The translations under genes and the position numbers were made by a program. 64,000 nt of DNA from Archangium sp. (GTDB lineage: Bacteria; Myxococcota; Myxococcia; Myxococcales; Myxococcaceae), in contig JAUXRX010000057.1 in assembly GCA_030681645.1 (NCBI GenBank), forward strand, positions 186,001 through 250,000, written 5' to 3'. Below are positions 20,517 through 44,190 of this stretch, in pieces; position 1 is the stretch's first letter, and every line of letters starts with the position of its first letter. A model generated the notes under the pieces. The model was not told where the DNA came from. It saw only the letters and a list, made by a program, of their open reading frames with translations, and ran no database searches.

Positions 20517-20568
20517 GGCGCCCGGGTGAACGTTTGCCCCCCTCCACTTCCCGTGGTTGGGTGAGCGG

Positions 20569-25838: not shown

Positions 25839-25988
25839 CTACGGGCCGGCGTCGGGCACCTCACACGCGACCTTGCCCAGGCTGCGCACGACGCACACCC
25901 GGCCTTCGCTGCAGGGAATGCCGTCGCACGGCTCCTTCGCGGCGCCGCAGCCTGCCAGCAGCAGGAAGATCACTTTCCAGTAGTGCAC
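25839..25988 (-). CDS. Very small Cys-containing lipoprotein, overlapping the upstream gene
   Basis: A 44- to 49-aa product. GTG 25988 gives MHYWKVIFLLLAGC, a short but plausible lipoprotein signal with Cys at 14. GTG 25973 overlaps the upstream stop as GTGA. The mature part has PCDGIPCSEGRVCVVRSLG with four Cys, like the short knob repeats at the N-termini of other lipoproteins in this window. Coding is supported by the lipobox and by codon bias outside the overlap. It is probably translated together with the Cys-rich repeat protein. Confidence 0.5.
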   Translation of the reverse strand: MHYWKVIFLLLAGCGAAKEPCDGIPCSEGRVCVVRSLGKVACEVPDAGP

Positions 25989-26980: not shown

Positions 26981-27676
26981 ATGCGCCTCTCGACGCACCA
27001 CCTGTCGCTGCACTTCGGAAACGTGCGCGCGCTCCACGAGCTGACGCTCGAGTTCCCCGTGGGCAGCCGCACCGTGCTGTGGGGCCCGGCGGGCGGCGGC
27101 AAGACGTCGCTGCTCAAGTGCCTCACCGGGCTGGTGATGCCGACGGGGGGCGAGGTGCAGTGGGACGACGTGCCGGTGAGCCAACGCACGGCGCAGGAGA
27201 AGCGCGACGCGCAGGTGGCCTTCGGCATGGTCTTTCAGAGCGACGCGCTCTTCGACTCGCTGACCGTGCTGGAGAACGTGCTGCTGCCGCTGCGCAAGCG
27301 CCACGTGCCCGAAGCCGAGGCGCTGGAGCGGGCGAACGAGGCGATCAAGCGGGTGCACCTCACCGAGGCGGCGCAGAAGCACCCGGAGAACCTGTCGGGA
27401 GGCATGAAGAAGCGCGCGGGGGTGGCGAGGGCGATCGTGGCGCGGCCGCAGGTGCTGCTGGCCGATGATCCGTTCGCAGGGCTCGACCCGAAGACCGAGC
27501 GATCGATCGCCGAGCTGCTGCTGGAGATCTCCGAGGGGCGCACCCTGATCGTCGCCCTGCCTGACCCCGTGCCGTCGCTGCCGGTCGATCGAACCATCCG
27601 CCTGGTCGCCGGCCAGGTGCAACCGTTCGGAAGCGCCCACCCGTTCACCCCGAGCGGAGTCGAGGGGCCCCGGTGA
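26981..27676 (+). CDS. MlaF-like ABC ATPase with degenerate Walker B and switch regions
   Basis: A 231-aa nucleotide-binding subunit of an Mla/MCE-type lipid transporter. Walker A is GPAGGGKTS (35-43), the Q-loop is VFQSDALFDSLTV as in MlaF, and the signature LSGGMKKR (139-146) is intact. The catalytic Glu after Walker B is Asp (ADDPFAGLD, D163), and the switch His is missing (VALPDP, Pro194 where VSHD is usual). This points to a non-hydrolysing half-site. The last 12 or so residues (HPFTPSGVEGPR) come from a family B repeat. It overlaps the first permease gene (GTGA) and heads a coupled operon. Confidence 0.88.
   Translation: MRLSTHHLSLHFGNVRALHELTLEFPVGSRTVLWGPAGGGKTSLLKCLTGLVMPTGGEVQWDDVPVSQRTAQEKRDAQVAFGMVFQSDALFDSLTVLENVLLPLRKRHVPEAEALERANEAIKRVHLTEAAQKHPENLSGGMKKRAGVARAIVARPQVLLADDPFAGLDPKTERSIAELLLEISEGRTLIVALPDPVPSLPVDRTIRLVAGQVQPFGSAHPFTPSGVEGPR
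27641..27667. repeat. Dispersed repeat family B, copy 2, at the 3' end of the ATPase gene
   Basis: CCGTTCACCCCGAGCGGAGT followed by CGAGGGG, the reverse complement of the copy at 20491-20516. It is translated as the C-terminus of the ATPase. Confidence 0.8.
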
Positions 27677-28449
27677 GCGTCATCCGCCACTTCGGCGCCT
27701 TCGTGCTCTGGCTCACCCGGTTGGTGGGCGCGAACATGCTCGTGTTCGGGCGCACCCTGCTCCACCTGCCGCGCTTGAACCTGGGCGAGCTGGGCCGGGC
27801 GATGGTGCTGTTCGGCTACCGCTCGCTGCCGCTCTCGCTGGGGGCCGCGACGCTGATCGGCGCGACGGTGGTGCTGCAGGCGGGCGTGTACGCGACCAAG
27901 TTCGGCGCCCGCCTCTACGTGGGCTGGGCGGCGGGCTTCGCGCTGCTGTGGGAGTTCGGCCCCCTGCTGCTCGGCCTGGTGATGGCCGCGCGCATCGGCG
28001 CCCGCAACGCGGCCGAGCTCGCGCTGCTCACGGTCAACGGACAGATCGAGGGGCTCAAGGGGATCTCGCTCGATCCGTTCCGCATCCTGGTGGCGCCGCG
28101 GGTGGTGGCGAGCGTGCTGTCGGTGATGATGCTGACGACCACGACGTTCATCGTGTCGATCGGCTGGGAAGCGGTCGCGGCGTATTACACGCTCGATCTG
28201 CCGGTGCGGATCTTCTTCCAGGCGTTCTCCGACATGTTGCGCTGGGGCGACCTGGTGGGCGGCGTGCTCAAGACCACCGCGTTCGGGCTGGCGATCTCCG
28301 TGGTGTCGACGGCGGCCGGTCTTCGCGCCACCGGCGGCGCGCGCGGAGTCGGCCAGGCGGCCGCGGCTTCGGTGGTGACGAGCTGCGCGGCGATCTTCAC
28401 GCTCGACTTCCTGCTCACCCCGGTGCTCTCGAGGATGTTCGGCGGATGA
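27673..28449 (+). CDS. MlaE/YrbE-type permease A
   Basis: A 258-aa inner-membrane permease. The amphipathic N-terminus (GRTLLHLPRLNLGELGRAM) and helices ATLIGATVVLQAGVYATKFG, FGPLLLGLVMAARIGARNAA and RVVASVLSVMMLTTTTFIVS follow the MlaE fold. The conserved Glu/Ile-rich coupling region reads LALLTVNGQIEGLKGISLDP. MlaE dimers bring phospholipid or other hydrophobic cargo between the inner membrane and an MCE protein. GTG 27673 overlaps the ATPase stop, and its own stop overlaps the next permease (ATGA). Confidence 0.9.
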   Translation: MSVIRHFGAFVLWLTRLVGANMLVFGRTLLHLPRLNLGELGRAMVLFGYRSLPLSLGAATLIGATVVLQAGVYATKFGARLYVGWAAGFALLWEFGPLLLGLVMAARIGARNAAELALLTVNGQIEGLKGISLDPFRILVAPRVVASVLSVMMLTTTTFIVSIGWEAVAAYYTLDLPVRIFFQAFSDMLRWGDLVGGVLKTTAFGLAISVVSTAAGLRATGGARGVGQAAAASVVTSCAAIFTLDFLLTPVLSRMFGG

Positions 28450-29189
28450 CGATGATCCACACCCTCGGCGCGCAGGCGCTGCTCTTCACCCGATCGCTGC
28501 GCAGCGCGAAGCGCGAGGGCGTGATGTGGCGCGAGGTGCTGCGTCACATGGCGGAGCTGGGGGCGAGCTCGAGCCTGCTCATCGGCGCGGGCCTGGCGTT
28601 CTTCGGCACGGTGATGGTGACCATCGCGTACGCCCAGGCGCGCAAGTACACGGGCAACATCACGGTGGTCGGGCCGGCGTACTTCGAGCTGATCTTGCGC
28701 GAGTTCGCCCCGATGTTGACCGCGCTGCTGGCGGCGTCACGGCAGGCGGCGTCGACGTCGGCCGAGCTGGGCGCGATGTCGGTGAACGAGCAGGTGGAAG
28801 CGCTCGAGCTGTCCGCCGCAGATCCGCTCGCCGAGCTGGTGGCGCCGCGCATCATCGCCTCGACGTTGACGCTGCCGCTGCTGACGGTGGTGGGCACCTG
28901 GTTCGCCACCCTGTCTGCGGTGGCGACGGTGACGTACGTGTTTGGCGCCGACGGCAGAGCGTTCATGGATCCCTCGATGGTGGATCCCGGCGACGTGGCC
29001 TGCGCGTTCGTGAAGGCGATCGTGTGCGGGGCGTTCATTCCGGTGGCCGCCGCGTACCGGGGGCTGCGCGCGAAGGGCGGCGCGAGCGCCGTGGGTGAGG
29101 CCGTCACCACGGGGGTCGTGGAGGCGTGCATGGGCTGCCTGCTGCTCGACTTCCTCGTGGCAGCGGTGTTCCTCATCATCGGCGTATGA
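28446..29189 (+). CDS. MlaE/YrbE-type permease B
   Basis: A 247-aa second permease from ATG 28446, overlapping permease A by 4 nt. It has the same fold: GAGLAFFGTVMVTIAYAQAR, FAPMLTALLAASRQAASTSA, ELGAMSVNEQVEALELSAAD and PRIIASTLTLPLLTVVGTWF. It is clearly diverged from permease A, so the pair probably forms a heterodimer, as YrbE-A/YrbE-B do in actinobacterial Mce systems. Its stop overlaps the start of a further short frame at 29186. Confidence 0.9.
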   Translation: MTMIHTLGAQALLFTRSLRSAKREGVMWREVLRHMAELGASSSLLIGAGLAFFGTVMVTIAYAQARKYTGNITVVGPAYFELILREFAPMLTALLAASRQAASTSAELGAMSVNEQVEALELSAADPLAELVAPRIIASTLTLPLLTVVGTWFATLSAVATVTYVFGADGRAFMDPSMVDPGDVACAFVKAIVCGAFIPVAAAYRGLRAKGGASAVGEAVTTGVVEACMGCLLLDFLVAAVFLIIGV

Positions 29190-29395
29190 AGATGAGCCCC
29201 GCAATTCCGATCTCCGCCAGTGTCGGTGCCTGCCTGGGCGGGTTCATCGGATACGCGCTTGCTCCCGGCTGGGAGATAGCTCCATTCGTGATCGGCGTCG
29301 TCGAGGGTCATGGCCCTGGGGACGGCGGCAGGGCAGGGTTGCCCCGTGCTCGACTCGCCCAGGCCCCTCAGCCACGGGCAAGGACCCGAGGGTGA
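29186..29395 (+). CDS. Short coupled membrane frame, probably a truncated fourth operon gene
   Basis: ATG 29186 overlaps the permease stop (ATGA), as do the other joints of this operon. The first 39 or so residues (SASVGACLGGFIGYALAPGW) form a convincing membrane segment. The following 30 (GHGPGDGGRAGLPRARLAQA) are Gly/Pro/Arg-rich and unlike protein in this genome. The frame ends 10 nt before a nested palindromic element. I read it as the start of a membrane gene whose remainder was lost. A genuine 69-aa protein is also possible. Confidence 0.4.
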   Translation: MKMSPAIPISASVGACLGGFIGYALAPGWEIAPFVIGVVEGHGPGDGGRAGLPRARLAQAPQPRARTRG

Positions 29396-29405
29396 CGCGG
29401 TCACG

Positions 29406-29545
29406 TTGTCTCCTTTGTTGACTGTGAGGGCGGGGGCGGAGGGGCTCAATAACCTCGTCCTCTTTGTTGACAACCCTTCGTCAACAAAGAGGACAGGGAT
29501 TTGTGGGGTCGGTCCCCCCACCCTCACAGTCAACAAAGGAGACAA
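29406..29545. repeat. Nested palindromic element
   Basis: The outer arms 29406-29430 and 29521-29545 are a perfect 25-bp inverted repeat containing CTCCTTTGTTGAC. The inner arms 29457-29471 and 29480-29494 are a perfect 15-bp inverted repeat with the related CCTCTTTGTTGAC and an 8-nt loop. The four copies of TTTGTTGAC (two per strand) give a REPIN-like layout. The 29546-29690 remainder shows no gene. The A+T level in the arms is visibly higher than in the surrounding DNA. Confidence 0.8.
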
Positions 29546-29690
29546 GTGGCCGACCGAACCTTCGTACCCCGAACCGCGACCCGGGAGCGGAGGCGGTTGG
29601 TGACGGGTCGCCGCACCGGACATGCTCGGCACCGCTGACGACGCTGGGTATGAGCCCGTCAGTCGCGGCGACTCGGGACGTGAACCGATC

Positions 29691-30359
29691 ATGGGACTGA
29701 ACTTCGCCTTCGTCTTTCTTCTGGAGCGCACTGAGCTGCCGAGGCTGGCGCAGGCGATCACCGCCCGCCTGACTGCTGAGTCAGCGCGTCCCCGGCTGAC
29801 CGACCCACCTGAGCGGGCGCTGGAGTCCACCGGCTATCGATTCGCGCGCGACCCGCACGCCCCTTGCCTCAGCTTCCGTGACCCTGTCGGTCACCACTCA
29901 CCCTTTGGCTGTGTCTACCTGGAGCGGCTGGAAGGGCTGCGGTTCGCGATCATCTCCCTCCGCGCTGCGGCCACCTCGATGAGCCACCGGTTTGACACCG
30001 ATGGGGCCATCTCCGGAATGATGCGTGAGATCGCGGAGAGCGGAGGCGTCCTGGCCGTGGCGTTCGACCGAGAGCTGAGCGCATGGGGGCGTCCGCCTGA
30101 CGAGAGCATGGGTGGTGGCCTGCCGTTTCCTGAGATCGCCGAGTACCTCCCCTTCTGGGCCAGCGAGTTCGGAGTGCCCCTCGGGCCCGCCCGTCAGCGT
30201 GCGCTCGAGGCCCGCGCCACGATTCTGGGCTCGCGCCTGGCATCGGACACAGAGGAGGCCGTCCGCGAAGCGCTGCTGGATGACGATGCGTTCGACGCCC
30301 GGATCGACGAGTTCGTCGTGCGGGTTCTGGACGCCCGTTCCGGCCGCAAACACAGCTGA
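29691..30359 (+). CDS. Hypothetical cytoplasmic protein
   Basis: A 222-aa protein from ATG 29691 (MGLNFAFVFLLERTELPRLA); an upstream frame to 29622 is not supported. It is mixed alpha/beta, with a GHHSPFGCVYLERLEGLRFA strand pair, an acidic C-terminal helix (DTEEAVREALLDDDAFDARI) and no signal peptide or membrane segment. The family is not recognised. Codon use is a little less GC-biased than in neighbouring genes, and it follows the palindromic element, so acquisition together with that element is conceivable. Confidence 0.6.
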   Translation: MGLNFAFVFLLERTELPRLAQAITARLTAESARPRLTDPPERALESTGYRFARDPHAPCLSFRDPVGHHSPFGCVYLERLEGLRFAIISLRAAATSMSHRFDTDGAISGMMREIAESGGVLAVAFDRELSAWGRPPDESMGGGLPFPEIAEYLPFWASEFGVPLGPARQRALEARATILGSRLASDTEEAVREALLDDDAFDARIDEFVVRVLDARSGRKHS

Positions 30360-30374
30360 GCTAGGGTCGCGGCC

Positions 30375-31574
30375 GTGCTCCGTTCAGCCGGCCTGATCGT
30401 CATCGTCGTGTTCGCAGCTTCGTGCGGCGGACCCACCAAAGAGAAGTGCGACGCCGTCACCTGCAGCAGCGGCTGCTGTGACGCCCTGGGGGAGTGCCAG
30501 GGCGGCTTCGACTCGTCCGCGTGCGGCGCGCCCGGAGGCGTCTGCACTGCGTGTGGAACCGATCAGCTCTGCTCGTTCGGCATCTGCATCGGCGGCAGCA
30601 GCGGAGGAGGCGGCGGCGCGAGTGGTGGCGGAACCGGCGGCGGCGCGACGGGTGGCGGAACCGGTGGCGGCGCGACCGGAGGCGGCGGAATGACCGGCGG
30701 CGGAGCAGGCGATGCCGGAGTGCCGTCCTGCACGAACATCACCGGCGACCGCCGCACCCAGGTCTGCCTTCGCTGGACCTGCGATCGCGCCGACATGAAC
30801 GAAGGCACCTGGAACGGCAGCGTGGCCGCCTGCATGCCCGGGGACCTCACCGCGGCCGCCCGCGCGAACGCACTCAAGATCCTCAACACGTACCGCTTCG
30901 TGGCCGACCTGCCTCCCGTCACCACCAACCCCACCCGCGACACGGCCGCCCAGGAATGCGCCCTCATCCAGGACGCGGCCAACATGCTCAGCCACACGCC
31001 CGACGCCGGCACGCCCTGCTACACGGCGATCGGCGCGAGCGCTGCGGGCAACAGCAACATCTCGAGCGCGGCCGCGGTGCGATCGATCGACATGTACATG
31101 TCGGACTTCGGCAACTCGACCACCATGGGCCATCGCCGCTGGTTCCTCTCGAACACGCTCGGCCCCGTCGGCATCGGCGGCACCACCGGCGCGAGCTGTC
31201 ACTGGGTGATCGGCGGCAGCGGCACGGCCACCAAGCGCTTCATGGCGTGGCCTCCGCCGGGCCCGGTGCCGCTGCAGGCGATCGCCATCCCCACGGTGGG
31301 CACGGGGAACTCCGTCGACCGCACGGGGTGGACGGTGCAGACGTACGCCACCGCCGACAACCTCGCGAACGCCACCATCACCGTCACCGACAACGGCACC
31401 AGCCTGCCCGTCACCATCAACGCGCTGGGCGCGAACTACGGCAGCCGCTCGGCCGTGCGCTTCGTGCCCATGGGGTGGACGAGCCAGGCGGGCCACAGCT
31501 ACGTGGTCACGGTCACCTCACCCACGATGACCACGCCGATCACCTACACGGTGGACGTCGTCACGTGCCCGTAG
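30375..31574 (+). CDS. CAP/SCP-domain lipoprotein with Gly-rich linker
   Basis: A 399-aa protein from GTG 30375 with a lipoprotein signal (VVFAASC, Cys at 17). A Cys-rich knob (KCDAVTCSSGCCDALGECQG) is followed by a roughly 35-residue Gly/Thr/Ala linker. A CAP (SCP/PR1) fold follows: ALKILNTYRFVADLPPV, AAQECALIQDAANMLSHTP and STTMGHRRWFLSNTLGPVGI. The C-terminal beta domain may be Ig-like (TVTDNGTSLPVTINALGANY). CAP proteins bind lipids or act in cell-cell interactions; the role here is unknown. Probably surface-exposed. Confidence 0.85.
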   Translation: MLRSAGLIVIVVFAASCGGPTKEKCDAVTCSSGCCDALGECQGGFDSSACGAPGGVCTACGTDQLCSFGICIGGSSGGGGGASGGGTGGGATGGGTGGGATGGGGMTGGGAGDAGVPSCTNITGDRRTQVCLRWTCDRADMNEGTWNGSVAACMPGDLTAAARANALKILNTYRFVADLPPVTTNPTRDTAAQECALIQDAANMLSHTPDAGTPCYTAIGASAAGNSNISSAAAVRSIDMYMSDFGNSTTMGHRRWFLSNTLGPVGIGGTTGASCHWVIGGSGTATKRFMAWPPPGPVPLQAIAIPTVGTGNSVDRTGWTVQTYATADNLANATITVTDNGTSLPVTINALGANYGSRSAVRFVPMGWTSQAGHSYVVTVTSPTMTTPITYTVDVVTCP

Positions 31575-31587
31575 GTGTTCAGGTCGA

Positions 31588-33447
31588 TCACTTCGCCAGC
31601 CCCACCATCCCCGTCGTCATGACCTCGAGGTAGGTGATGAGCAGCACGCCCACCGCGAGGATCAACAGGAACGGCAGCGTGCGCGCGTAGAGGTACGGCA
31701 GCGGCTTCTGGAAGCGCGACGACGCGAGGAAGAGGTTGAGCCCCATCGGCGGGAAGAGGAAGCCGAGCTCGAGGTTCGCCAGGAAGATCACCCCGAGGTG
31801 CACGGGATCGATGCCGTACGCCACGCCGATCGGCGCGACCAGGGGCGCGAGCACCACGATGGCCGCGTAGATCTCGAGCACGCTGCCGAAGATGAGCAGG
31901 CCCACGTTGAGCGCCAGCAGGAACACCCAAGGGCTCTTCACGTGCGTGGTCGTCCACTCCAGCAGCAGCGTGGGCACCTCGGCGTCGACCAGGTAGGACG
32001 AGAGCCCCATCGCCACCCCGAGCAGGATCACCACGGCGCCCACCAGCGTGCTCGCGGTCACCAGCACCCGGGGCAGGTCCTTCACCGGGCGGATGGTGCG
32101 GAAGACCACCATCTCGACGAAGAGCGCGTACGCGCAGCCCAGCGCGCTCGCCTCGACGATGGTGCCGAAGCCCGAGACGACGGTGGCGATCACGATGACC
32201 GGCAGCCCGAGATCCCACTTCGCTTCCCACAGCCCCAGGCCCGCGTCCTTAGGCTTGAACTTCTGCCGGGCGATCTTGTGGCGAATGCCCATGAAGATGC
32301 CGTACGCCGCCACCATCGCCATCATCAGCAGGCCGGGAACGAGGCCTCCGAGGAAGAGGTGCGCGACGGGCACCGAGGCGACCACCGAGTAGAGGATCAC
32401 CGGCAGCGACGGCGGGAAGAGAAGGCCCAGCGAGCCTGACGCGGTCACCAGGCCCATGCTGAAGCCTTCGGGGTAACCCTCTTCCTTCAGCATCGGCAGC
32501 AGGAGCCCGCCGAGCGCGAGAATGGTCACGCCCGAGCCGCCCGTGAACGTGGTGAACACCGCGCACACCACCGTGGCCATGATCGCCACTCCGCCCGGCA
32601 TCCACCCGAAGAAGCCCTTGTAGGCCTTCACCAGTCGCTTGGCCGCGCCGCCTTCCGCCAGCACGTAGCCCGCGATCGTCAGGAGCGGGATCGCCGGCAA
32701 CGTCGCCGACGACACCAGGCGGAACGTCTCTGCCGGCACCGCCGCGACGGGCGTGCCGTCATGCCAGAACAGCACCATCGCCACCGCGCCCATCACCACG
32801 AACACCGGCGCGCCGCTCAGGAACGCGATGCCGATGATCACCAGCAGCACGGTCATCACCGCAGACGACGGCGCGAAAGCCCCGAGCGCGAAGGCGAGCC
32901 CGATGGCGACCAGGGCGACGCCGCGATCGATCCACGACTGCGGCTCCTTGCCGACGCGCCAGGCGAAGCGCAGCGCCATCACCGCGAAGGCGAAGGGCAT
33001 GATCGCCTCGCTCCACGACACGGGGAACGAGCCGACCACCGTGCGGCCGCTGTCTGCGTCGGCCTGCACCACCTTCCACGACGCGTAGGCCAGCAACGCG
33101 CAGACCGCCGCCGCCGTGACGCGGGTGAGCAGGCTCGCGACGCGCCGCGGCCAGCCCTTCGGGATCGCCTCGACGGTGGAGAGCGCGAGGTGCTTGCCCG
33201 TGCCCGCCGCGAGCAGCGCTCCGAGGAAGCCGATCCACAGGGTCAGGTGCTGGACGATCACCGACGCGCTGGGGATCTCGGTGTCGGCCACCTTACGCGC
33301 GAGCGCCTGGATCACCGGCAACGCCACCATCACCAGCGCGAGCAGGCCCACGAACAGGCCTGCGCCGGTGGTGAGCTTGCGCTCGATCGGCGAGAGGTCC
33401 TTCTGAGCGTCCTCGAACTCCCCTTCGGGCGTCATCTCGGTGGTCAT
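31588..33447 (-). CDS. TRAP transporter fused permease (DctQM)
   Basis: A 619-aa inner-membrane protein. The first third (TGAGLFVGLLALVMVALPVI, LTLWIGFLGALLAAGTGKHL) is the small DctQ subunit. From about residue 210 the large DctM subunit follows, with FLSGAPVFVVMGAVAMVLFW, SSATLPAIPLLTIAGYVLAE, VFTTFTGGSGVTILALGGLL and GLLFPPSLPVILYSV. Such carriers use the Na+ or H+ gradient to import organic acids or similar solutes with a periplasmic binding protein. ATG 33447 is chosen; starts at 33468 and 33480 are possible. It is divergent from the TatT-DctP genes. Confidence 0.92.
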   Translation of the reverse strand: MTTEMTPEGEFEDAQKDLSPIERKLTTGAGLFVGLLALVMVALPVIQALARKVADTEIPSASVIVQHLTLWIGFLGALLAAGTGKHLALSTVEAIPKGWPRRVASLLTRVTAAAVCALLAYASWKVVQADADSGRTVVGSFPVSWSEAIMPFAFAVMALRFAWRVGKEPQSWIDRGVALVAIGLAFALGAFAPSSAVMTVLLVIIGIAFLSGAPVFVVMGAVAMVLFWHDGTPVAAVPAETFRLVSSATLPAIPLLTIAGYVLAEGGAAKRLVKAYKGFFGWMPGGVAIMATVVCAVFTTFTGGSGVTILALGGLLLPMLKEEGYPEGFSMGLVTASGSLGLLFPPSLPVILYSVVASVPVAHLFLGGLVPGLLMMAMVAAYGIFMGIRHKIARQKFKPKDAGLGLWEAKWDLGLPVIVIATVVSGFGTIVEASALGCAYALFVEMVVFRTIRPVKDLPRVLVTASTLVGAVVILLGVAMGLSSYLVDAEVPTLLLEWTTTHVKSPWVFLLALNVGLLIFGSVLEIYAAIVVLAPLVAPIGVAYGIDPVHLGVIFLANLELGFLFPPMGLNLFLASSRFQKPLPYLYARTLPFLLILAVGVLLITYLEVMTTGMVGLAK

Positions 33448-33522
33448 CGCGGGTTGCGCTCGTACCATGTAACGGCGCAATTCGTTGACCCCCGGGGTCC
33501 GAGGTCCTTATGAGCGAGCGGC

Positions 33523-34416
33523 ATGCTTCGACTCGCTCTCATCGCTGCGCTCGCGGTCTTCGGTTCAGGCTGCTTCGCCTCGTTCGCCACCGGCGTCGTC
33601 GCCGACGCGCTCTCGGGCCCCGGCACGCTGGGCACCGACGACGATCCCGAGCTGGTGCGTGACGCGGCTCCCTTCGGCCTCAAGACCATGGAGAGCGTGC
33701 TGCAGTCGCAGCCTCGCCACGTGGGCCTGCTCACCTCGCTCGCCTCGGGCTTCACCCAGTACGGCTACGCCTTCGTGCAGCAGGACGCCGACGCCGAGGA
33801 GTTCGCCGGCCGCAACACCCCCGCCGCCACCATGCGCCTGCGCGCGAAGAAGCTGTTCCTGCGCGCCCGCGACTACGGGCTGCAGGGCCTCGAGCTCTCG
33901 AGCCCGGGCATCACCGAGAAGCTCAAGTCGATGCGCGGCCTGCCCGAAGCGGTAGCGCCCCTGAAGAAAGAGGACGTGCCCCTCGTCTACTGGACCGCTG
34001 CGGCCTGGTCGCTGGCCATCTCGAACGGGAAGGAAGACATGGGGCTGGTGTCAGAGCTGCCGGCTCCGGAGGCCTTGATGAAGCGCGCGCTGGAGCTCGA
34101 CGAGACGTGGGAAGAGGGCTCGCTGCTCGAGTTCTTCGTGTCCTACGAGGCCGCGCGCCCGGGCGGGACTGAAGCGGGCGCCAAAGCGTTCCTGGATCGA
34201 TCGCTCAAGCTGAGCGGCGGGAAGCACCTGGGCGTGCAGGTGTCGTGGGCCGAGGGCGTGCTGGTGCAGTCGCAGAAGCGCGAGGAGTTCGAGGCGGTGC
34301 TCAAGGCCGTGATCGCCGCCGACGTGGACGCCTCGAAGAAAGATCGCCTGGCGAACACGATTGCGCAGCGCCGCGCGAAGATGCTGCTCAAGTATGCGGA
34401 CGACCTTTTCAACTGA
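33523..34416 (+). CDS. TRAP-associated TatT-like lipoprotein
   Basis: A 297-aa lipoprotein (LAVFGSGC, Cys at 17). The helical body has TPR-like repeats (LLTSLASGFTQYGYAFVQQD, RLRAKKLFLRARDYGLQGLE, WTAAAWSLAISNG, LLEFFVSYEAARP) and matches TRAP T-component (TatT) proteins. In Treponema, TatT (Tp0956) forms a trimer that docks the binding protein TatP. It lies just upstream of the DctP gene, so the pair is probably the periplasmic part of the transporter at 31.6-33.4 kb. Confidence 0.88.
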   Translation: MLRLALIAALAVFGSGCFASFATGVVADALSGPGTLGTDDDPELVRDAAPFGLKTMESVLQSQPRHVGLLTSLASGFTQYGYAFVQQDADAEEFAGRNTPAATMRLRAKKLFLRARDYGLQGLELSSPGITEKLKSMRGLPEAVAPLKKEDVPLVYWTAAAWSLAISNGKEDMGLVSELPAPEALMKRALELDETWEEGSLLEFFVSYEAARPGGTEAGAKAFLDRSLKLSGGKHLGVQVSWAEGVLVQSQKREEFEAVLKAVIAADVDASKKDRLANTIAQRRAKMLLKYADDLFN

Positions 34417-34426
34417 GGGAATCAAC

Positions 34427-35410
34427 GTGACCAAACGACTCGTGGTGCTGGTGGCGGTGCTGGTGGCGAACGTGGCGCTCGCGCAGGACGTGACGATCAA
34501 GCTGGGCACGCTCGCGCCGCAGGGCTCGACCTGGCACTCGCTGCTCAAGGAGATGGCCGAGAAGTGGTCGGAGGCCTCGGGCGGCAAGGTGAAGCTCAAG
34601 ATCTACGCCGGCGGCACGCAGGGCAGCGAAGGCGACATGGTGCGGAAGATGGGCGTGGGGCAGCTCCAGGCCTCGTCGATCACCAACGTCGGGCTGCACG
34701 ATATCGTGGCCGAGCCGATGGTGTTCTCCACCCCGGGCCTGTTCGACGAGCGCGACTTCCGCGACACGTTCCCCAAGCTCGAGGCGCAGCTCAACGGCAT
34801 CGTCGAGGCCAAGGGCTACGTGGTGCTGTCGTGGGCGCAGGTCGGCACGGTGCAGATCTTCTGCACGAAGCCCTACACGACGCCCGAGGCCGCGGCTGAC
34901 GCGAAGTTCTTCGCCTGGGACGGCGACCCGGCGGCGGTCGAGGCCTTCAAGCTCGTCGGCTTCCGGCCGGTGGTGCTGTCGTCGACCGACATCGTGCCCT
35001 CGCTGCAGACGGGCATGATCACCTGCGTGTCGCAGGTGCCGGCGTACGTGCTCACCGCGCGGCTGTTCGACAAGGCCAACCAGATGGTCGACTACCCCTG
35101 GGCGTACCTGATCGGCGCGACGATCGTGAAGAAGGACGCGTGGGAGAAGATCCCCGCCGACGTGCGGCCCAAGCTGCTGGCGATCACCAGGGACATCAAC
35201 TCGCGCATCGACGCCGAGGTGAAGCGGCTCAATGACGACGCGGTGGCCGCGATGAAGAAGCAGGGCCTCAACGTGGTGAAGGTCGATGCGGGCCCGTGGG
35301 AGAAGGCGGCCATGCGCTCGTGGCCTGCCGTGCGCGGGAAGGTCGTGCCCGAGGCGTTCTTCGACCAGGCGCTCAAGGCGCGCGATGAGGCGCGCAAGGC
35401 GCGGAAGTAG
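34427..35410 (+). CDS. TRAP transporter substrate-binding protein (DctP)
   Basis: A 327-aa periplasmic protein starting at GTG 34427, with GAGGGA 7 nt upstream. The signal peptide is MTKRLVVLVAVLVANVALA. It has the DctP fold: IKLGTLAPQGSTWHSLLKEM, VKLKIYAGGTQGSEGDMVRK, the central helix LQASSITNVGLHDIV and LTARLFDKANQMVDYPWAY. The Arg that usually binds a substrate carboxylate is not obvious, so the ligand may not be a simple C4-dicarboxylate. It starts 10 nt after the TatT stop. Confidence 0.93.
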   Translation: MTKRLVVLVAVLVANVALAQDVTIKLGTLAPQGSTWHSLLKEMAEKWSEASGGKVKLKIYAGGTQGSEGDMVRKMGVGQLQASSITNVGLHDIVAEPMVFSTPGLFDERDFRDTFPKLEAQLNGIVEAKGYVVLSWAQVGTVQIFCTKPYTTPEAAADAKFFAWDGDPAAVEAFKLVGFRPVVLSSTDIVPSLQTGMITCVSQVPAYVLTARLFDKANQMVDYPWAYLIGATIVKKDAWEKIPADVRPKLLAITRDINSRIDAEVKRLNDDAVAAMKKQGLNVVKVDAGPWEKAAMRSWPAVRGKVVPEAFFDQALKARDEARKARK

Positions 35411-35418
35411 CCGTGTAT

Positions 35419-35460
35419 CTCCCTCTCCCCGAGGGGGAGAGGGTCGGGGAGAGGGCAAGC
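35419..35460. repeat. REP-like family C, copy 2, with terminator-like hairpin
   Basis: The 10-bp arms CCCTCTCCCC (35421-35430) and GGGGAGAGGG (35434-35443) have a 3-nt loop. It lies between convergent dctP and hemerythrin genes and probably terminates both. The whole 42-nt unit is the reverse complement of 35971-36012 with one mismatch. Confidence 0.85.
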
Positions 35461-35470
35461 CGATTGAGCG

Positions 35471-35893
35471 CTATGCACGGACCACAGGACGATGTGTGGC
35501 CGCCGGTGCAGAGAGGTAGCGCCCGAACTGCTGGTCCATGCCGAGGATGTGGGTGTGCAGCCAGGCCACCATCACCTTGTGCACCTTGATCGCCAGCCAC
35601 GCGGTCTCGCCGGTCTGCTGGTACTCGGCCTTGATCTGCAGGAACAGCTCGACGAAGCGGTCGTGGACGCCTTTGTGGATGGCGAAGAAGGGGTACCCGG
35701 TTTCCTTCATCTTCCGCTCCTCGCAGCCGAAGTGCTCGACCACGTAGTCGCCGAGGAAGTCGAGCATCTCGACCACCTGCTGGTGGTCCCCTTCACGCAG
35801 GGAGGCCTCGAGCCTGCCCACGCGCGCAAACAACTCCTGGTGCTGACGGTCGATCTCTTCGACTCCGAGTTCGAAGCGCGTTTCCCATTGCAT
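35471..35893 (-). CDS. Bacteriohemerythrin
   Basis: A 140-aa four-helix protein that binds O2 at a non-haem di-iron site. The ligands are all visible: GVEEIDRQHQELF, VEHFGCEERKM, FFAIHKGVHDRF and VAWLHTHILGMDQQF. Length fits the single-domain family (about 130-150 aa). There is no signal peptide. Likely roles are oxygen storage or delivery, or sensing in motile cells. It is flanked by two inverted copies of a REP-like repeat. Confidence 0.92.
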   Translation of the reverse strand: MQWETRFELGVEEIDRQHQELFARVGRLEASLREGDHQQVVEMLDFLGDYVVEHFGCEERKMKETGYPFFAIHKGVHDRFVELFLQIKAEYQQTGETAWLAIKVHKVMVAWLHTHILGMDQQFGRYLSAPAATHRPVVRA

Positions 35894-35950
35894 GGCTCGG
35901 CCTCCGGCGTCCGGCGAACACCCTCGCCGCGGCGGCGTCGTTGATCTCGA

Positions 35951-37606
35951 TCAACTCACCCGGCCGTTTGGCTTGCCCTCTCCCCGGCCCTCTCCCCCTC
36001 GGGGAGAGGGAGACACGAGTTCGAGCTGCGTCTCGGCCGCCGCCGCGATGCGATTCGACTGGCGCGATCGATATGCCGCCGCTTCACGCACGGCCTGCGC
36101 CAGGTGCTTCTGCCCGTCCGCCAGCGGTGACGCCCTGCCCTGCAGCGTCGAGAACGGAATCGCCGCCGACCTCGCGCTCGCTACCCGCTTCGTCAGATCC
36201 CGCTCGAGCAGTCGCATCACCGCTGCGTCCACCTCCGGCGGGATCTCCGGGCGGATCGCCGACGGCGGACGCAGGGCCATCTCCAGCACCTCGTACCGTT
36301 CCTGCTCGCTCGCGCCCGTCGAGAACAACGGCCGCCCCGTCAGAGCCTCGTGCAGCGTCAGCCCCACCGCGAACAGATCCGCCCGCCCATCGAGCGGCTT
36401 GTCCGTCAGCTGCTCGGGCGCCAGGTAGCCGGGCTTGCCCTTGATGTACCCGGCCGCCGTCATCCGGGCCGCGCCCATGCTCGCCCGCGCGATGCCGAAG
36501 TCCGTCAGCTTCACCTCGCCCAGCGTCGACACCAGGATGTTCGGCGGGTTCACGTCACGGTGAACGAGGTTGAGCGGCTGCCCATCGGACCCCGAGCGGT
36601 AGTGCACGTACTCCAGCGCCGCCAGCAGCTCGACGGCCAGGAAGGAGACCGCCGCGATCGGCAGCCCCAGCTTGTGCGCGTCCATCACCCGCTTCAGCGA
36701 AAACCCCTCCACGTATTCCATCGCCAGGAACCACGTGTCGCCGAAGCGCCCGAAGTCCATCACCTGCACCACGTTCGGGTGGTTGAGCCGGCTGCACAGC
36801 GCCGCCTCCTGCCGGAACAGCTCGATGAAATCGAGGTCGTCTGCGTAGCTCGGCAGGATCTTCTTCACCGCCACGGTCTTCTCGAAGCCGCCCTCCGGGG
36901 AATAGCTCGCGCGAAACACCTCGGCCATGCCGCCCGCCCCGATGCGCTCGTGCAGCAGGTATTTCCCCAGCAAGTCGCGCGCGCGCACCGCCGCCAACGC
37001 TTCTTCCGCGCGGCGGTTGAAGTGCCCCACGAAGGCCGCGGTCACCAGCCCCGAGCAGAAGAGCAGGAACGCCCGCGTCACGATCATCGGCGCCTGCAAC
37101 GTCACCCAGATGTCCGCCGGCAGCTTCGGCGCAGCCACCAGGAAATAGAGCGCCAGGTACTCGCCCGCCGCCAGCCCGCCTGCGAGCACCGCCAGCGACT
37201 TCGAGCCGCGCAGCGCCGAGAGCGCCACCAGCGTGCCCCAGATCGCCAGGGGCGGCGCGGTGAGCGCGTATTCCGCCCCGCGCGCCCGCGTGTCGACCAG
37301 GAAGATCAGCGCCGGCGCCGACACTTCGATCGCCACGTTGAGCCAGGCCACCGCCGGCTTGAACCACCCCCGCCGCAACAGCCACCACTGCGCGCCGTAC
37401 CAGGTGGCCAGCAACCCCAGCAGCACCGCCAGCGAGTACGAGAGCCGCGCGCCGATCAACGGCTGCAGCGCCAGGGCCGCCAGCCCCGACGCCGCCGTGG
37501 CGAACACCATGAAGCGGGCGACCGACAGCTCCCGCGCCGGGGCGTCTCTGGTCAGGTGCTCGCGGAGGGCCCGGGTGCCGGCGTTGGTGGGGGCGCTGGC
37601 GGCCAT
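35951..37606 (-). CDS. Membrane Ser/Thr protein kinase with N-terminal membrane domain
   Basis: A 551-aa protein. Residues about 30-195 contain six or so membrane helices (VFATAASGLAALALQPLIGA, YSLAVLLGLLATWYGAQWW, FLLFCSGLVTAAFVGHF). The kinase domain, about 215-480, has IGAGGMAEVFRA, VAVKKIL, the catalytic loop HRDVNPPN (Asn where Lys is usual), TDFGIARA and YLAPEQ. The kinase therefore sits behind the membrane part rather than before it, the reverse of most PknB-like kinases. The last 20 residues (SPSPRGGEGRGEGKP) are encoded by the REP-like copy at 35971-36012. Divergent from the large lipoprotein gene. Confidence 0.88.
   Translation of the reverse strand: MAASAPTNAGTRALREHLTRDAPARELSVARFMVFATAASGLAALALQPLIGARLSYSLAVLLGLLATWYGAQWWLLRRGWFKPAVAWLNVAIEVSAPALIFLVDTRARGAEYALTAPPLAIWGTLVALSALRGSKSLAVLAGGLAAGEYLALYFLVAAPKLPADIWVTLQAPMIVTRAFLLFCSGLVTAAFVGHFNRRAEEALAAVRARDLLGKYLLHERIGAGGMAEVFRASYSPEGGFEKTVAVKKILPSYADDLDFIELFRQEAALCSRLNHPNVVQVMDFGRFGDTWFLAMEYVEGFSLKRVMDAHKLGLPIAAVSFLAVELLAALEYVHYRSGSDGQPLNLVHRDVNPPNILVSTLGEVKLTDFGIARASMGAARMTAAGYIKGKPGYLAPEQLTDKPLDGRADLFAVGLTLHEALTGRPLFSTGASEQERYEVLEMALRPPSAIRPEIPPEVDAAVMRLLERDLTKRVASARSAAIPFSTLQGRASPLADGQKHLAQAVREAAAYRSRQSNRIAAAAETQLELVSPSPRGGEGRGEGKPNGRVS
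35971..36012. repeat. REP-like family C, copy 3, in the kinase 3' end
   Basis: The arms CCCTCTCCCC (35988-35997) and GGGGAGAGGG (36001-36010) form the same hairpin as copy 2, in opposite orientation. It lies inside the kinase coding region just before its stop. Confidence 0.85.
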
Positions 37607-37714
37607 GGCGGCTCAGGGTAGCCGAAGCGCGCTCCCGTCTCGACTTCAGCGAGCCTGAGCGAATAGGGTCCGGCCCCGTTCCAAAAGGGGCAGTACCAGG
37701 GAGTCGGACGCCAC

Positions 37715-39760
37715 ATGAAGCAACTGACGATCACCACGATCCTCGCGGGCGCGCTGCTGTTCGCCTGCACGCCACCGGCGACCAAGTGCACCACCTTCGC
37801 CGACTGCCTGACCAACCAGGTCTGCGTCCAGGGAGAATGTCGCGGCGGCCTCGCCGGCGGCACGGGCGGCAGCGGTAACGGCCAGGGCGGCGGCGTGGGC
37901 GCAGGTGGCGGTGGCGGCACCACCAGCGGCGGCGGCACGGGCGGCTCCGGCGGCGGCGTCACCGGCGGCGGCACCGGCGGCGGCGTGACGGGCGGCGGCA
38001 CCGGCACTGGCGGCGGCGGCCTGGTCGAGCCCGACGCAGGCGTGAACCCCACCTACGACGGCGGCTGCGGCCCCCCGATGCCCGGCAACCCCACCATTCG
38101 CCGGCTCTGCGCGGCGCCCACCCTGAGCGAGTGCGACGGCCCCACCGACTCCGCCCTCACCAGCGGCAGCGTCCCCGCGGCGCGCCTCAACGGCACCCAG
38201 GGCAACGGCTTCGATGACGACTGCGACGGCGAGGTCGACGAGGGCTGCTTCTGCCCCGCCAACGGCGTCACCAAGGACTGCTACCTCGTGCCCGCCACCC
38301 AGGTCAGCGACGTCAGCGGCCTCCCCGTGGGCTGGTGCACCAACAACGCGAAGGGCAGCCTCGACTGCTCCGGCGGCGAGCTCGCCACCTGGTCTGGCGT
38401 GTGCCGCGGCGCGCAGCCCCCTGCGCTCACCGATTCCTGCGCGTCCGGTGACTACAACTGCGACGGCCTCTCGGGGAACAACGCGGCCGAGGGCTGCATG
38501 TGCCCCAACAGCGTGCAGTGCCCGAGCAACACCATCACGCTCGCGCCGTACCCGAACCCCAACGCGATCCCCATCATCGACGGCTCGCAGTGGATCACCG
38601 ACGTCGCCGCCCGGAACCGCACCACCAACTGGGCGTGGACCGTGCTCGGCGGCGACTGCGACAACGTGCTGCCCAACCCCACCTTCGCCATCTACAACCA
38701 GACCAACTCCACGATCGGCGGAGCGCGCCGCGGCACCCGCACCGGCGTGCGCCTCGACGCCACGCAGACGCCCGCCCGGTACGTGGTGCAGGCCAATTCC
38801 CCCCTCATCGGCATCCAGGCGACGGCGTACGGCAACGGCGCCAGCGGCGGCCAGGTCTTCCCCGCCTTCGGCCTGTCCGGTGACTACATCGTGCAAGGCG
38901 AGTTCACCCTCGACGGCCGCACCTACAGCTGCACCCAGAAGGTCCAGGTGCGCGCCCCGGGCATCCGCGCAGAGCTGTGCTGGGACAACGTGGGCAGCAA
39001 CGACGTCGATCTCCACTTCGCCCGCCTGCAGGGCAACACCTGCACCACCCGCGGCTGGACGACCACCTGCATGAACGGCAACGGCTCGGTCCAGGACTGC
39101 TACTACTCGACGCTCTCGAGCTGCCCGAACGGGAGCACCACCACCGGCTGGGGCTACACCGCGTCGGCGACCACGGCCTGCCAGGGCTGGTCGAGCAGGC
39201 GCACCTCGGCCTGCAGCAACCCCCGCCTCGATCGCGACAACGTCTCGTGCACACGCGGCGAGACCGACCCGACCGCGGGCTCGTTCTGCGGCCCGGAGAA
39301 CATCAACCTCGACAACCCCAACAACGATGACGCCTTCGTGGTCGGGGTGAACATGTACTCGGGCGCGAACAGCAAGCCGCACGTGAACCTGTACTGCAAC
39401 GGTGAGCGCGTGGTCTCCGTCGGCTACAACCCGGCGACGGGCCAGACGGCCTTCCCGCTGCTGAGGAACGCGGGCGCGGGCACCTCGGGCGACTTCTGGA
39501 CGGTGGCGACCATCAAGGCGAACGTCGCGGGCGGCAACCTGGCCTCGTGCACGGTCACCACCGTCCCCTCCCGGGTGGCCAACGCCAGTCGCGATGGCCT
39601 GCCGAACATGGGCTCGACCGGCAACGACATCTGCGTGGACTCCGCCGCGACCGACGCGACGTTCCGCTACACGTCCAAGGCCTTCGTCGAGAACGCCACG
39701 GGCCAGGGTCTGGCGCCCGGCGCGCAGCCGATGACGGCGACGCAGTGGTGCAAGCACTGA
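37715..39760 (+). CDS. Large lipoprotein with MopE-like metal-binding motif and Gly-rich linker
   Basis: A 681-aa protein with lipobox LLFAC (Cys at 18), a Cys knob (CTTFADCLTNQVCVQGEC) and a roughly 60-residue Gly/Thr/Ser linker. Next come Cys-rich stretches with DDDCDGEVDEGC, the MopE-like putative Ca-binding motif seen in myxobacterial surface proteins. Residues about 390-590 form a beta domain with ELCWDNVGSNDVDLHFARL and NPNNDDAFVVGVNMYSG, resembling YfaP-like or jelly-roll domains. The protein is probably on the cell surface. It is divergent from the membrane kinase, 108 nt apart. Confidence 0.82.
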   Translation: MKQLTITTILAGALLFACTPPATKCTTFADCLTNQVCVQGECRGGLAGGTGGSGNGQGGGVGAGGGGGTTSGGGTGGSGGGVTGGGTGGGVTGGGTGTGGGGLVEPDAGVNPTYDGGCGPPMPGNPTIRRLCAAPTLSECDGPTDSALTSGSVPAARLNGTQGNGFDDDCDGEVDEGCFCPANGVTKDCYLVPATQVSDVSGLPVGWCTNNAKGSLDCSGGELATWSGVCRGAQPPALTDSCASGDYNCDGLSGNNAAEGCMCPNSVQCPSNTITLAPYPNPNAIPIIDGSQWITDVAARNRTTNWAWTVLGGDCDNVLPNPTFAIYNQTNSTIGGARRGTRTGVRLDATQTPARYVVQANSPLIGIQATAYGNGASGGQVFPAFGLSGDYIVQGEFTLDGRTYSCTQKVQVRAPGIRAELCWDNVGSNDVDLHFARLQGNTCTTRGWTTTCMNGNGSVQDCYYSTLSSCPNGSTTTGWGYTASATTACQGWSSRRTSACSNPRLDRDNVSCTRGETDPTAGSFCGPENINLDNPNNDDAFVVGVNMYSGANSKPHVNLYCNGERVVSVGYNPATGQTAFPLLRNAGAGTSGDFWTVATIKANVAGGNLASCTVTTVPSRVANASRDGLPNMGSTGNDICVDSAATDATFRYTSKAFVENATGQGLAPGAQPMTATQWCKH

Positions 39761-39773
39761 CACTGAGTCTGGT

Positions 39774-39900
39774 TTGCCCTCTCCCCGACCCTCTCCCCCA
39801 CCAGCGAAGCCGGTTCAGCGGAACGCTGGACCAGCGCATCTGAAGCGAAGCGGAAGATGCGCCAAGGCGAAGCGACCAGAGACTCGGGGAGAGGGAGACA
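39774..39900. repeat. REP-like family C, copy 4, split by an insert with a family A copy
   Basis: The left arm CCCTCTCCCC (39789-39798) and right arm GGGGAGAGGG (39886-39895) match copy 3 but are separated by 87 nt instead of 3. The insert contains a CCAGCG/CGCTGG hairpin (39801-39829) and a diverged family A repeat (39839-39882). It lies between the large lipoprotein gene and the second Mla ATPase gene. Confidence 0.75.
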
Positions 39901-39910
39901 GTTTGCGTCC

Positions 39911-40585
39911 GTGAGCACCCTCTCGCTCCGAGGCATCACCAAGCGCTTCGGCGCAGCCACCATCCTCGAGGGGCTCTCGGTGGAGATACCCCTCACGGGC
40001 ATCACCTTCATCGTGGGCACCTCGGGGAGCGGCAAGTCGGTGCTCTGCCGCCTCGCGGTGGGCCTGCTCAAGCCCGACGCGGGCGAGGTGTTTCTCTTCG
40101 ACCAGCGCGTCGACACCATGCCCGAGCGCAAGCTGCAGCAACTGCGCGCGCAGGCGCCATACCTGGTGCAGGGCCCGGCGCTGCTCGACTGGCTGACCCT
40201 CTTCGACAACGTGGCGCTGGCCGACCCGAAGTCGCGCGAAGACGGGCGGGCCGAAGCGGCGATGACGCGGCTGGGGCTGATGCAGTTCTCGGGGCGGAAG
40301 CCGCCCGAGGTGGGCCCCGGCATCCGCAAGCGGGCCGCCATCGCCCGGGCGCTGGTGCTGGAGCCTGAGGTGCTGCTGCTCGACGAGCCCACCACGGGGC
40401 TGGATCGGGAGGCGGCGGGCCAGGTGAACGACGCCCTGGCCCTGGTGCGCGAGCAGGGGTTGGGGGTGGCCCTGGTGTCCCACGACTACGACGCGCTCGG
40501 AAAGCTCGCGGACCGGGTCGTTCAGGTGAAGGATCGGCAGGTCGGCTACTGCGGCCCGGCGAAGGACTTCCCGCGAGAGAGATGA
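39911..40585 (+). CDS. MlaF-like ABC ATPase with degenerate signature motif
   Basis: A 224-aa nucleotide-binding subunit from GTG 39911. Walker A is GTSGSGKSV (36-44), the Q-loop is in LVQGPALLDWLTL, and Walker B with catalytic Glu is VLLLDEPTTGLD (D158, E159). The switch His is present in LVSHDY (H191). The signature is broken: VGPGIRKR (134-141) replaces LSGGMRKR, so its own signature face should be inactive. This is the exact complement of the ATPase at 27 kb. An MCE gene follows after one base, so the pair is the second half of an Mla-type transporter. Confidence 0.88.
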   Translation: MSTLSLRGITKRFGAATILEGLSVEIPLTGITFIVGTSGSGKSVLCRLAVGLLKPDAGEVFLFDQRVDTMPERKLQQLRAQAPYLVQGPALLDWLTLFDNVALADPKSREDGRAEAAMTRLGLMQFSGRKPPEVGPGIRKRAAIARALVLEPEVLLLDEPTTGLDREAAGQVNDALALVREQGLGVALVSHDYDALGKLADRVVQVKDRQVGYCGPAKDFPRER

Positions 40586-40586
40586 C

Positions 40587-41597
40587 ATGGACGAGAGTCG
40601 GCTCGAACTCAAAGTAGGCGCGCTGGTGTTGGCGGCGGTGCTGGGCGCCTTCACCCTGCTCGTGCTGATGGGGGAGCTCTCCTTCGGCGGCGCGAAGAAG
40701 ATCACCGTCGACTTCTCCCACACGGGGAACGTGGTGAAGAACGCACCGGTGAAGCTGGGCGGCGTGGTGGTGGGCAAGGTGGAAGACGTCGAGCTGCTCG
40801 CCTCGCGCCGCGACGCCGAGGGCAGCCCGCTGCCGGTGAAGATGACCCTGGGGCTCACCAACGACGCGGCGGCCTCGCTGCGCACCGACGCGATCGTCAC
40901 CGTGTCGAGCGTGGGCCCGCTGGGAGAGTCCTACCTCGAGGTGTACTCGGGCTCGGCGAAGGACCCGCATGATCCGAAGGTGCCCATTCGCGGGCTCGAT
41001 TCTCCCCGCATCGACGTGGTGAGCAACCGGCTGGCGAAGTTCCTCGACGCGGCCTCGCGCGTGCTCGAGAGCGATCCCGAGGCGCTCACCAAGCTCGTGC
41101 GCGGCGTGGGCGGGCTCACCACCACCGTCGACGGGGTGATCGTCGAGAACCGCGAGCAGCTCAAGACCCTCGCCAGCGAGCTCTCGATCGCGGCCGCCGA
41201 TCTCCGCGTGCTCGCCGCCACCGCCCGCAAGCAGCTGGAGCCGGGCGGCAAGGCCAACGCGCTCCTCGACGACGCGGCGGCGACGGCGAAGGTGGCGCGG
41301 GCCGAGCTGCCCGAGCTCTCGAAGCAGGCGTCGATCGCGCTGGGCGGGCTGGCGCGCGTGTCGGGGCCGTTGACTGAAGAAGACGGTCAACGCCTCAAGG
41401 CGATGATCGTGAAGTACCAGGAGGCCGGCGAGAAGGTCGACGCCCTGGCCAGCCGCGCGGACCGGGTGCTGGCCAAGCTCGAGGCCGGTGAAGGCAGCAT
41501 GGGCAAGGTGTTGAAGGACCCCGCCGTGTACGACGAGCTCAAGACCCTGCTGACCGATGTGCGCAAGAACCCCTGGAAGCTGCTCTGGAAGGACTGA
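40587..41597 (+). CDS. MlaD-like MCE-domain protein
   Basis: A 336-aa protein with an N-terminal membrane anchor (KVGALVLAAVLGAFTLLVLM) and an MCE domain at about residues 38-130 (VDFSHTGNVVKNAPVKLGGV, DAIVTVSSVGPLGESYLEVY). A long helical region follows to the end (about 140-330), with heptad-like Ala/Leu spacing as in MCE proteins that extend across the periplasm. MCE hexamers form the lipid channel of these transporters. The start is 1 nt after the ATPase stop. Confidence 0.92.
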   Translation: MDESRLELKVGALVLAAVLGAFTLLVLMGELSFGGAKKITVDFSHTGNVVKNAPVKLGGVVVGKVEDVELLASRRDAEGSPLPVKMTLGLTNDAAASLRTDAIVTVSSVGPLGESYLEVYSGSAKDPHDPKVPIRGLDSPRIDVVSNRLAKFLDAASRVLESDPEALTKLVRGVGGLTTTVDGVIVENREQLKTLASELSIAAADLRVLAATARKQLEPGGKANALLDDAAATAKVARAELPELSKQASIALGGLARVSGPLTEEDGQRLKAMIVKYQEAGEKVDALASRADRVLAKLEAGEGSMGKVLKDPAVYDELKTLLTDVRKNPWKLLWKD

Positions 41598-41692
41598 GCG
41601 GAGATCGCGCGGGACCGATCCACCCTGGTGCATCGCGCCCGCGCGGATCCGTCCCATCAGGCGCTTAGCCGTTGGCATTCCCCCTGCTGAGT

Positions 41693-41736
41693 GACTCCTC
41701 GACCGCGACGTTCCCGTCAAAGGTCATCGAGGAGTC
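41693..41736 (+). promoter_or_regulatory. Hairpin that sequesters the ribosome-binding site of the MBL gene
   Basis: Perfect 10-bp arms GACTCCTCGA (41693-41702) and TCGAGGAGTC (41727-41736) are separated by 24 nt. The second arm contains GGAG (41731-41734), the Shine-Dalgarno 6 nt before ATG 41741. When folded, the RNA would block translation, as in RNA thermometers or other leader switches. The trigger is not known. Confidence 0.5.
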
Positions 41737-41740
41737 TCCA

Positions 41741-42571
41741 ATGGACGTCCGATTCTGGGGTGTACGTGGCAGCGTGGCGTCATCTGGTTCAAACGTCGCG
41801 AAGATCGGAGGCAACACCTCGTGCCTGGAGCTGGAGAGCCAGGGCCACCGGTTGATCTTCGACGCGGGCACGGGCCTGCGCAGCCTGGGCGACTGCCTGA
41901 TGAAGTCGCCGCCGGTGAAGGCGACGATGCTCTTCTCGCACCTGCACTGGGATCACGTGCAGGGCTTTCCCTTCTTCTCGCCGGCCTTCATGCCCACCAC
42001 CGAGCTGACGATGTACGGGCCGGGCGCCGACGGTGAACAGCAGCTGCAGTCGGTGCTGCGCAAGCAGATGGAGCCGCCGAACTTCCCCGTCCCCCTCTCC
42101 GCCATGCGCGCGAAGATGGACTTCCGCTCGGCCGTGCCCGGCGGGGTGATCGAGACGGGTCCGTTCCGCATCACGCCGTTCGACCTGCCCCACCCCCAGG
42201 GCTGCATCGGGTACCTGGTCGAGGCCGACGGCTGCCGCTTCGCCTACTGCACCGACGTCGAGATGACGCTGGAGTCGCTGCGCAGCGACGTGGGCGACGT
42301 GCTCAGCGGCGTCGACGCGCTGGTGCTCGACGCGCAGTACACCCGCGACGAGTACGAGGGCCGCGTAGGGCCTCCGAAGAAGGGCTGGGGCCATTCCACC
42401 AACGTCGACGCCGCGCGCATCGCGCAGTCGGTCGGCGCGGGGCGGCTGTTCCTCTTCCACCATGATCCCGGTCACGTCGACACCCAGGTGGAGGACATGG
42501 CCGAGGAAGCCCGCCACTACTTCCCCGCCAGCGAGCCGGCCCGCGAGAACAAACGCATCTCCCTGGGGTGA
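41741..42571 (+). CDS. Metallo-beta-lactamase-fold hydrolase
   Basis: A 276-aa protein from ATG 41741 (MDVRFWGVRGSVASSG). The HxHxDH motif is in LFSHLHWDHVQGFPFF, preceded by GGNTSCLEL and FDAGTGLRSLGDCL. Further ligands are YCTDVEM and FHHDPGHVD. The N-terminal FWGVRGS motif is typical of a phosphodiesterase-like MBL subgroup often linked to signalling. The substrate is uncertain; a cyclic nucleotide or related phosphodiester is possible. Its stop overlaps a GTG (GTGA) of the next frame. Confidence 0.9.
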   Translation: MDVRFWGVRGSVASSGSNVAKIGGNTSCLELESQGHRLIFDAGTGLRSLGDCLMKSPPVKATMLFSHLHWDHVQGFPFFSPAFMPTTELTMYGPGADGEQQLQSVLRKQMEPPNFPVPLSAMRAKMDFRSAVPGGVIETGPFRITPFDLPHPQGCIGYLVEADGCRFAYCTDVEMTLESLRSDVGDVLSGVDALVLDAQYTRDEYEGRVGPPKKGWGHSTNVDAARIAQSVGAGRLFLFHHDPGHVDTQVEDMAEEARHYFPASEPARENKRISLG

Positions 42572-42586
42572 CCTTGTTCGCCGCCT

Positions 42587-42630
42587 CTCTGGGTCGCTCC
42601 GCCTCGGCCAGTTCTCCGCTCCGCTCCGAT
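42587..42630. repeat. Dispersed repeat family A, copy 2
   Basis: Same element as 6848-6890 (GGTCGCTCCGCC, GGCCAGTTCTCCGCT). It lies between the MBL gene and the likely start of the sigma-54 activator, or would be translated if the activator starts at GTG 42568. Confidence 0.8.
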
Positions 42631-42681
42631 TCTTTGCCTTGCACCACCGGCCCCTTGGGGTTGGACTCACTGCTCCTCGAG

Positions 42682-44190
<1,509 letters not shown>

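Follow-up and report, generated by a model that had tools for sequence, protein, structure and literature searches.

In Escherichia coli, the ATPase MlaF and the permease MlaE are each present in two identical copies in the complex MlaF2E2D6B2 (PMC7790496), and MlaF2 is an ATPase homodimer (PMC7367683, PMC7790496). Mycobacterial MceG also forms a homodimer, which sits on a YrbE heterodimer and is thought to be common to several MCE systems (PMC9882608). Paired ATP sites of unequal quality are known from other ABC proteins: in TAP, one composite site is complete and the other is impaired by changes in Walker B, the switch and/or the signature (PMC4242082), and the same pairing is found in TM287/288 and BmrCD (PMC4046567). 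The degenerate site of these three proteins turns over slowly and tends to remain nucleotide-bound (PMC4242082, PMC4046567).

The window, that is, the whole stretch of 64,000 nucleotides analyzed here (C61:186001-250000), contains five genes that very probably encode the parts of a single lipid ABC transporter of the MCE type, in which the permeases and the ATPases would each pair as a heterodimer, with one live and one dead ATP site. These genes are as follows:

26981..27676, + strand: F1, an Mla-type ATPase with Walker A and LSGGM intact, D163 and P194; 49 homologues, forming one clade.
27673..28449, + strand: E1, the first MlaE-type permease, in which the cytoplasmic-loop motif GQxEGL replaces EQxxAL; its clade lies apart from E2 and canonical MlaE.
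28446..29189, + strand: E2, the second MlaE-type permease, with the EQxEAL motif retained.
39911..40585, + strand: F2, an Mla-type ATPase with Walker A, Q-loop, E159 and H191 intact and VGPGI in place of LSGGM; one clade.
40587..41597, + strand: D, an MCE protein with an N-terminal transmembrane (TM) helix, an MlaD-like barrel and predicted long C-terminal helices.

The five genes resemble those of MlaFEDB, the type VIII ABC transporter of E. coli, in the MlaE-family permeases and in the MCE protein with its TM helix and MlaD-like barrel. F1 and F2 branch beside canonical MlaF, and LSGGM is common to F1 and MlaF (PMC7367683). However, the myxobacterial operon encodes two permeases as well as a pair of ATPases whose defects are complementary, and no MlaB or MlaC gene was noticed within it (an observation confined to the operon and not genome-wide). 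The likeness to Mce1 (YrbE1A/YrbE1B/MceG/Mce1A-F) lies in the heterodimeric permease and the long helical C-termini of the MCE proteins, whereas the Mce1 ATPase is homodimeric; F1 and F2 differ, and a single MCE gene goes with them. TAP1/TAP2, TM287/288, and BmrCD share the pair of consensus and degenerate sites proposed for F1/F2, but they are exporters with a different fold, in which the membrane and ATPase domains are joined in a single polypeptide instead of the separate F and E chains. In the open-access literature (subscription papers were outside the scope), we found no description of a heterodimeric ATPase pair in MCE systems and nothing on an F1-E1-E2-F2-D operon in Myxococcus.

An earlier note on this DNA had claimed an ATPase with LSGGM but with D163 and P194, and another with E159 and H191 but with VGPGI, and both claims were confirmed by reading the residues directly. 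F1 has Walker A (GPAGGGKT) at 35 and LSGGM at 138, with Asp163 at the position of the catalytic Glu and Pro194 at that of the switch His; F2 has Walker A (GTSGSGKS) at 36, VGPGI at 134, Glu at 159, and His at 191. Both proteins matched ABC_tran in the domain search, and neither reached the NCBIfam cut-off of the E. coli-type MlaF equivalog. Searches with F1 and F2 by phmmer against PDB chains and by NCBIfam scans were unselective, as is usual for ABC ATPases. The start of F2 is uncertain because a second in-frame ATG is present at 39857. The window F1 and F2 have lengths of only 231 and 224 aa, against 269 aa for E. coli MlaF (PMC7367683), and the C-terminal 'handshake' that stabilizes the MlaF dimer may therefore be absent.

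The two MlaE permeases reported in the earlier note at the 27-kb locus are indeed different, with 36% identity across the aligned part and overlapping reading frames. E1 and E2 scored 171.5 and 157.1 bits, respectively, for the MlaE family (PF02405, cut-off 22.5). The Glu of the EQ motif is replaced by Gly in E1 of most Myxococcaceae and retained in E2. The coupling helix of MlaE, between TM2 and TM3, touches MlaF (PMC7790496), and we infer that the EQ-type motif of E1/E2 is located in this helix. The MCE domain (PF02470) was detected in D with 42.8 bits (cut-off 25.1). A helix at residues 3-27 followed by a barrel was predicted for D by AlphaFold, and MlaD and Mce1 chains, including 8fed/8fef, were the closest matches to the fold in the structure comparison, so that the MCE fold of D is directly supported. 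The long C-terminal helices remain tentative, because the model is good in the TM and MCE part only (mean pLDDT of 56).

The genome comprises 10.24 Mb in 66 contigs, with a listed contamination of 6.66%; the locus is nonetheless syntenic with its relatives. The statement that D is the only MCE protein holds within the window and fails for the genome, in which four MlaE and four MCE domains were counted. A search for a separate MlaFED set for each of the two ATPases yielded two complete canonical E-F-D operons elsewhere (C62 at ~309 kb and C61 at ~65 kb), each with its own canonical ATPase, in which the LSGGM, DEP, and SHD/THD motifs are all intact. These operons contain the same protein families as F1-E1-E2-F2-D, but each has one permease and one ATPase without motif defects. 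The fourth MCE gene is an orphan with a lipobox-like N-terminus (L011:5768-6568; G000:C17, ~168.8 kb), with no other MlaE gene nearby.

In most relatives whose loci were read, including Myxococcus xanthus, Corallococcus, and Pyxidicoccus, the five genes are contiguous in the order F1-E1-E2-F2-D, and the distance between E1 and D is ~2 kb in most relatives. This arrangement supports the earlier proposal of one transporter split over two loci. The two window loci are one ancestral operon broken by an insertion in the genus, and not a transporter assembled from unrelated loci. The insertion and the conserved surroundings of the operon are as follows:

29190..39910, no strand: the insertion splitting the operon, in the gap between E2 and F2; 10,721 bp, absent from most relatives.
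20557..22248, + strand: a UbiB/ABC1-like kinase, next to F1 on the upstream side in several relatives; context only and no part of the transporter.
41672..42571, + strand: an RNase Z-like protein of the metallo-beta-lactamase fold, downstream of D in several relatives; context.
42568..44190, + strand: a GAF/sigma-54 activator, a conserved neighbour in several relatives; context.

The insertion carries a protein kinase, repeat-rich ORFs, and a TRAP transporter (fused DctQM, T-component, and DctP; window 31588-35410). In G072, a genome of the same genus, only ~1.8 kb separate E2 from F2, and this gap includes a homologue of the ORF preceding F2 in the window, which suggests a stepwise growth of the insertion. 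Misassembly was rejected as the cause of the split, because same-genus genomes break at the identical point with different spacing. Other split points were found between F2 and D (G082 and G020) and between E1 and E2 (G096). Additionally, a short repeat array lies 5' of F1 (window 25980-26425), with a match in several registers in the same-genus genome G085.

Co-occurrence of the parts was observed across 195 genomes. E1 and F2 were both present in 90 and both absent in 100, leaving 5 discordant genomes (agreement in 190/195); for E1 and D, the counts were 88, 92, and 15 (180/195). The presence cut-offs were chosen by eye at gaps in the scores, three F2 were counted only after sequence reading, the sampling was confined to Myxococcota, and many of the genomes are fragmented assemblies. 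The Fisher p-values for co-occurrence overstate the evidence, because related genomes are not independent. In the class-wide sample, the genomes without E1 gave a best F2 match at the level of canonical ATPases, and for D they yielded weak matches to paralogues but no orthologue. Among those discordant genomes that were read, most proved to be contig ends (G140 and G161) or divergent copies of the same system (G107, G168, G170, G183, and G185). A D homologue was present in G192, where E1 was not found, and F1 was not identified in G191, where the candidate examined was canonical. The search for F1 covered part of the 195 genomes, and F1 accompanied F2 in almost every genome read, whether linked or unlinked. 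Six genomes from other classes (G106, G187, G189, G190, G193, and G194) yielded no F1 next to E1-E2-F2, but each of them encodes elsewhere a protein of the F1 clade that lacks the His and has SGGM intact. Both ATPases are likewise retained where the parts of the system are dispersed in G033, G087, G088, and G164. Genera without one part also lacked the others. The condition named in the earlier note as refuting, relatives with just one of the two loci, is the opposite of what was observed, since most relatives have all five genes in one operon and others retain the parts at separate sites.

The complementary defects noticed in the window are conserved across the phylum. SGGM, together with the Lys of Walker A and the Asp of Walker B, is kept in all 49 F1 homologues, while the catalytic position is occupied by Asp in 39, Glu in 9, and Gly in 1, and His is found at the switch position in only 3 of the 49. 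Hence 48/49 F1 lack at least one of the catalytic Glu and the switch His. The defect is not universal, since the F1 of G004 has both residues; the F2 of that genome still lacks the signature. Among the 44 F2 homologues, Lys, Gln, Asp, Glu, and His are retained without exception (44/44), and the signature is non-canonical in every one (44/44), with Pro (34), Ala (6), or other residues (4) at its third position. The more divergent operons of G170, G183, and G185 show the identical pattern. As the defects recur in 49 F1 and 44 F2 homologues, they cannot be attributed to chance.

In the trees, F2, canonical MlaF, E1, E2, and canonical MlaE each fell on one side of a supported branch, and F1 with its unlinked members did so with a support of 100/99. 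F1, F2, E1, and E2 are therefore four separate, old families, distinct from canonical MlaF and MlaE. The ATPase tree required a single change of the signature, at the base of F2, and at least five changes of the Glu state and two of the His state, all inside F1 and none in F2 or canonical MlaF. In the simplest order, which is inferred, the F2 signature would have been lost first, killing the site built with the F1 Walker motifs, and the catalytic residues of F1 would then have been free to decay. We consider it likely that these proteins represent an ancient, Myxococcota-wide class of MCE transporter with heterodimeric membrane and motor halves and one obligate dead ATP site, in which the loss of the F2 signature was followed by that of the F1 His and, several times, of the Glu, and in which each permease half is specialized for one ATPase (E1 without the loop Glu and E2 with it).

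In ABC proteins, each ATP site is built across two chains, one of which supplies the Walker motifs and the other the signature. Pairing of F1 with F2 would consequently give one site with every residue and one without signature, Glu, and His, whereas either homodimer would give two bad sites. We propose that E1 pairs with E2 in the membrane and F1 with F2 beneath them, with a ring of D on top; the docking of the ATPases on the permeases and the D ring are inferred. In the putative head-to-tail ATPase dimer, F2 would contribute its Walker motifs, Glu159, and His191 to a complete hydrolytic site opposite the F1 LSGGM. At the second site, the F1 Walker motifs, with Asp163 and Pro194, would meet the F2 VGPGI, and ATP could bind there with poor or no hydrolysis. 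An Asp at the catalytic position can keep some catalytic activity. If the analogy to TAP, TM287/288, and BmrCD extends to these proteins, ATP would stay bound at the dead site and leave the dimer partially engaged, with the live site powering the cycle. There is no direct evidence of a complex, and the physical heterodimer, its live/dead ATPase cycle, the lipid substrate, and the direction of transport are likewise inferences.

The same genes could instead belong to two distinct transporters, one formed by an F1 homodimer on E1/E2 and the other by an F2 homodimer together with D and another permease, with the degenerate ATPase tolerated in each. The two loci are 10.7 kb apart in the window genome and further MlaE genes exist, as this explanation would have it, but most relatives have a single operon, the parts are gained and lost jointly, and the remaining MlaE genes already have ATPase and MCE genes of their own. 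Moreover, Glu and His would be missing from both sites of an F1 homodimer, and the signature from both sites of an F2 homodimer; we regard this explanation as improbable. We also give little credence to the idea that one of the ATPases has a non-catalytic role, regulatory or structural, or that F1 pairs with a canonical MlaF. The absence of both catalytic residues from F1 in the window family is consistent with such a role, yet 49/49 F1 conserve SGGM along with the Lys of Walker A and the Asp of Walker B, as a partner site and ATP binding at a dead site would require, and F1 follows F2, whereas canonical MlaF also occurs in genomes without F1.

Pseudogene drift in the window lineage would account for both the split and the defects as signs of a decaying operon, and the interruption in the window and the variable spacing inside the genus could be read in this way. 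However, the five window frames are all open, F1, E1, F2, and D have third-position GC of the coding type, and identical motif defects are conserved in other genera and classes whose operons are intact. This explanation was rejected and retains almost no plausibility. The reading as one transporter with complementary ATPases is thus preferred.

The need for both ATP sites in MCE lipid transport is a question that nature has not posed in the MCE transporters of known structure, because their ATPases are homodimers. The proposed transporter seems to have one dead site fixed in organisms that are tractable, M. xanthus among them, beside symmetric MlaFED paralogues in the same genomes, and it becomes directly testable how many ATP sites a transport cycle requires and what the idle one does. 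In addition, complementary motif loss can reveal a split ABC transporter.

Two further observations were made in the sampled records. The record 'Comamonas sp. KCTC 72670' (L170) contains a complete Myxococcus-like F1-E1-E2-F2-D operon and is probably mislabelled or contaminated. At L192 (G107:C168), tandem divergent MlaE-like permeases lie beside an ATPase with LSGGQ and the His intact, constituting a different double-permease system.
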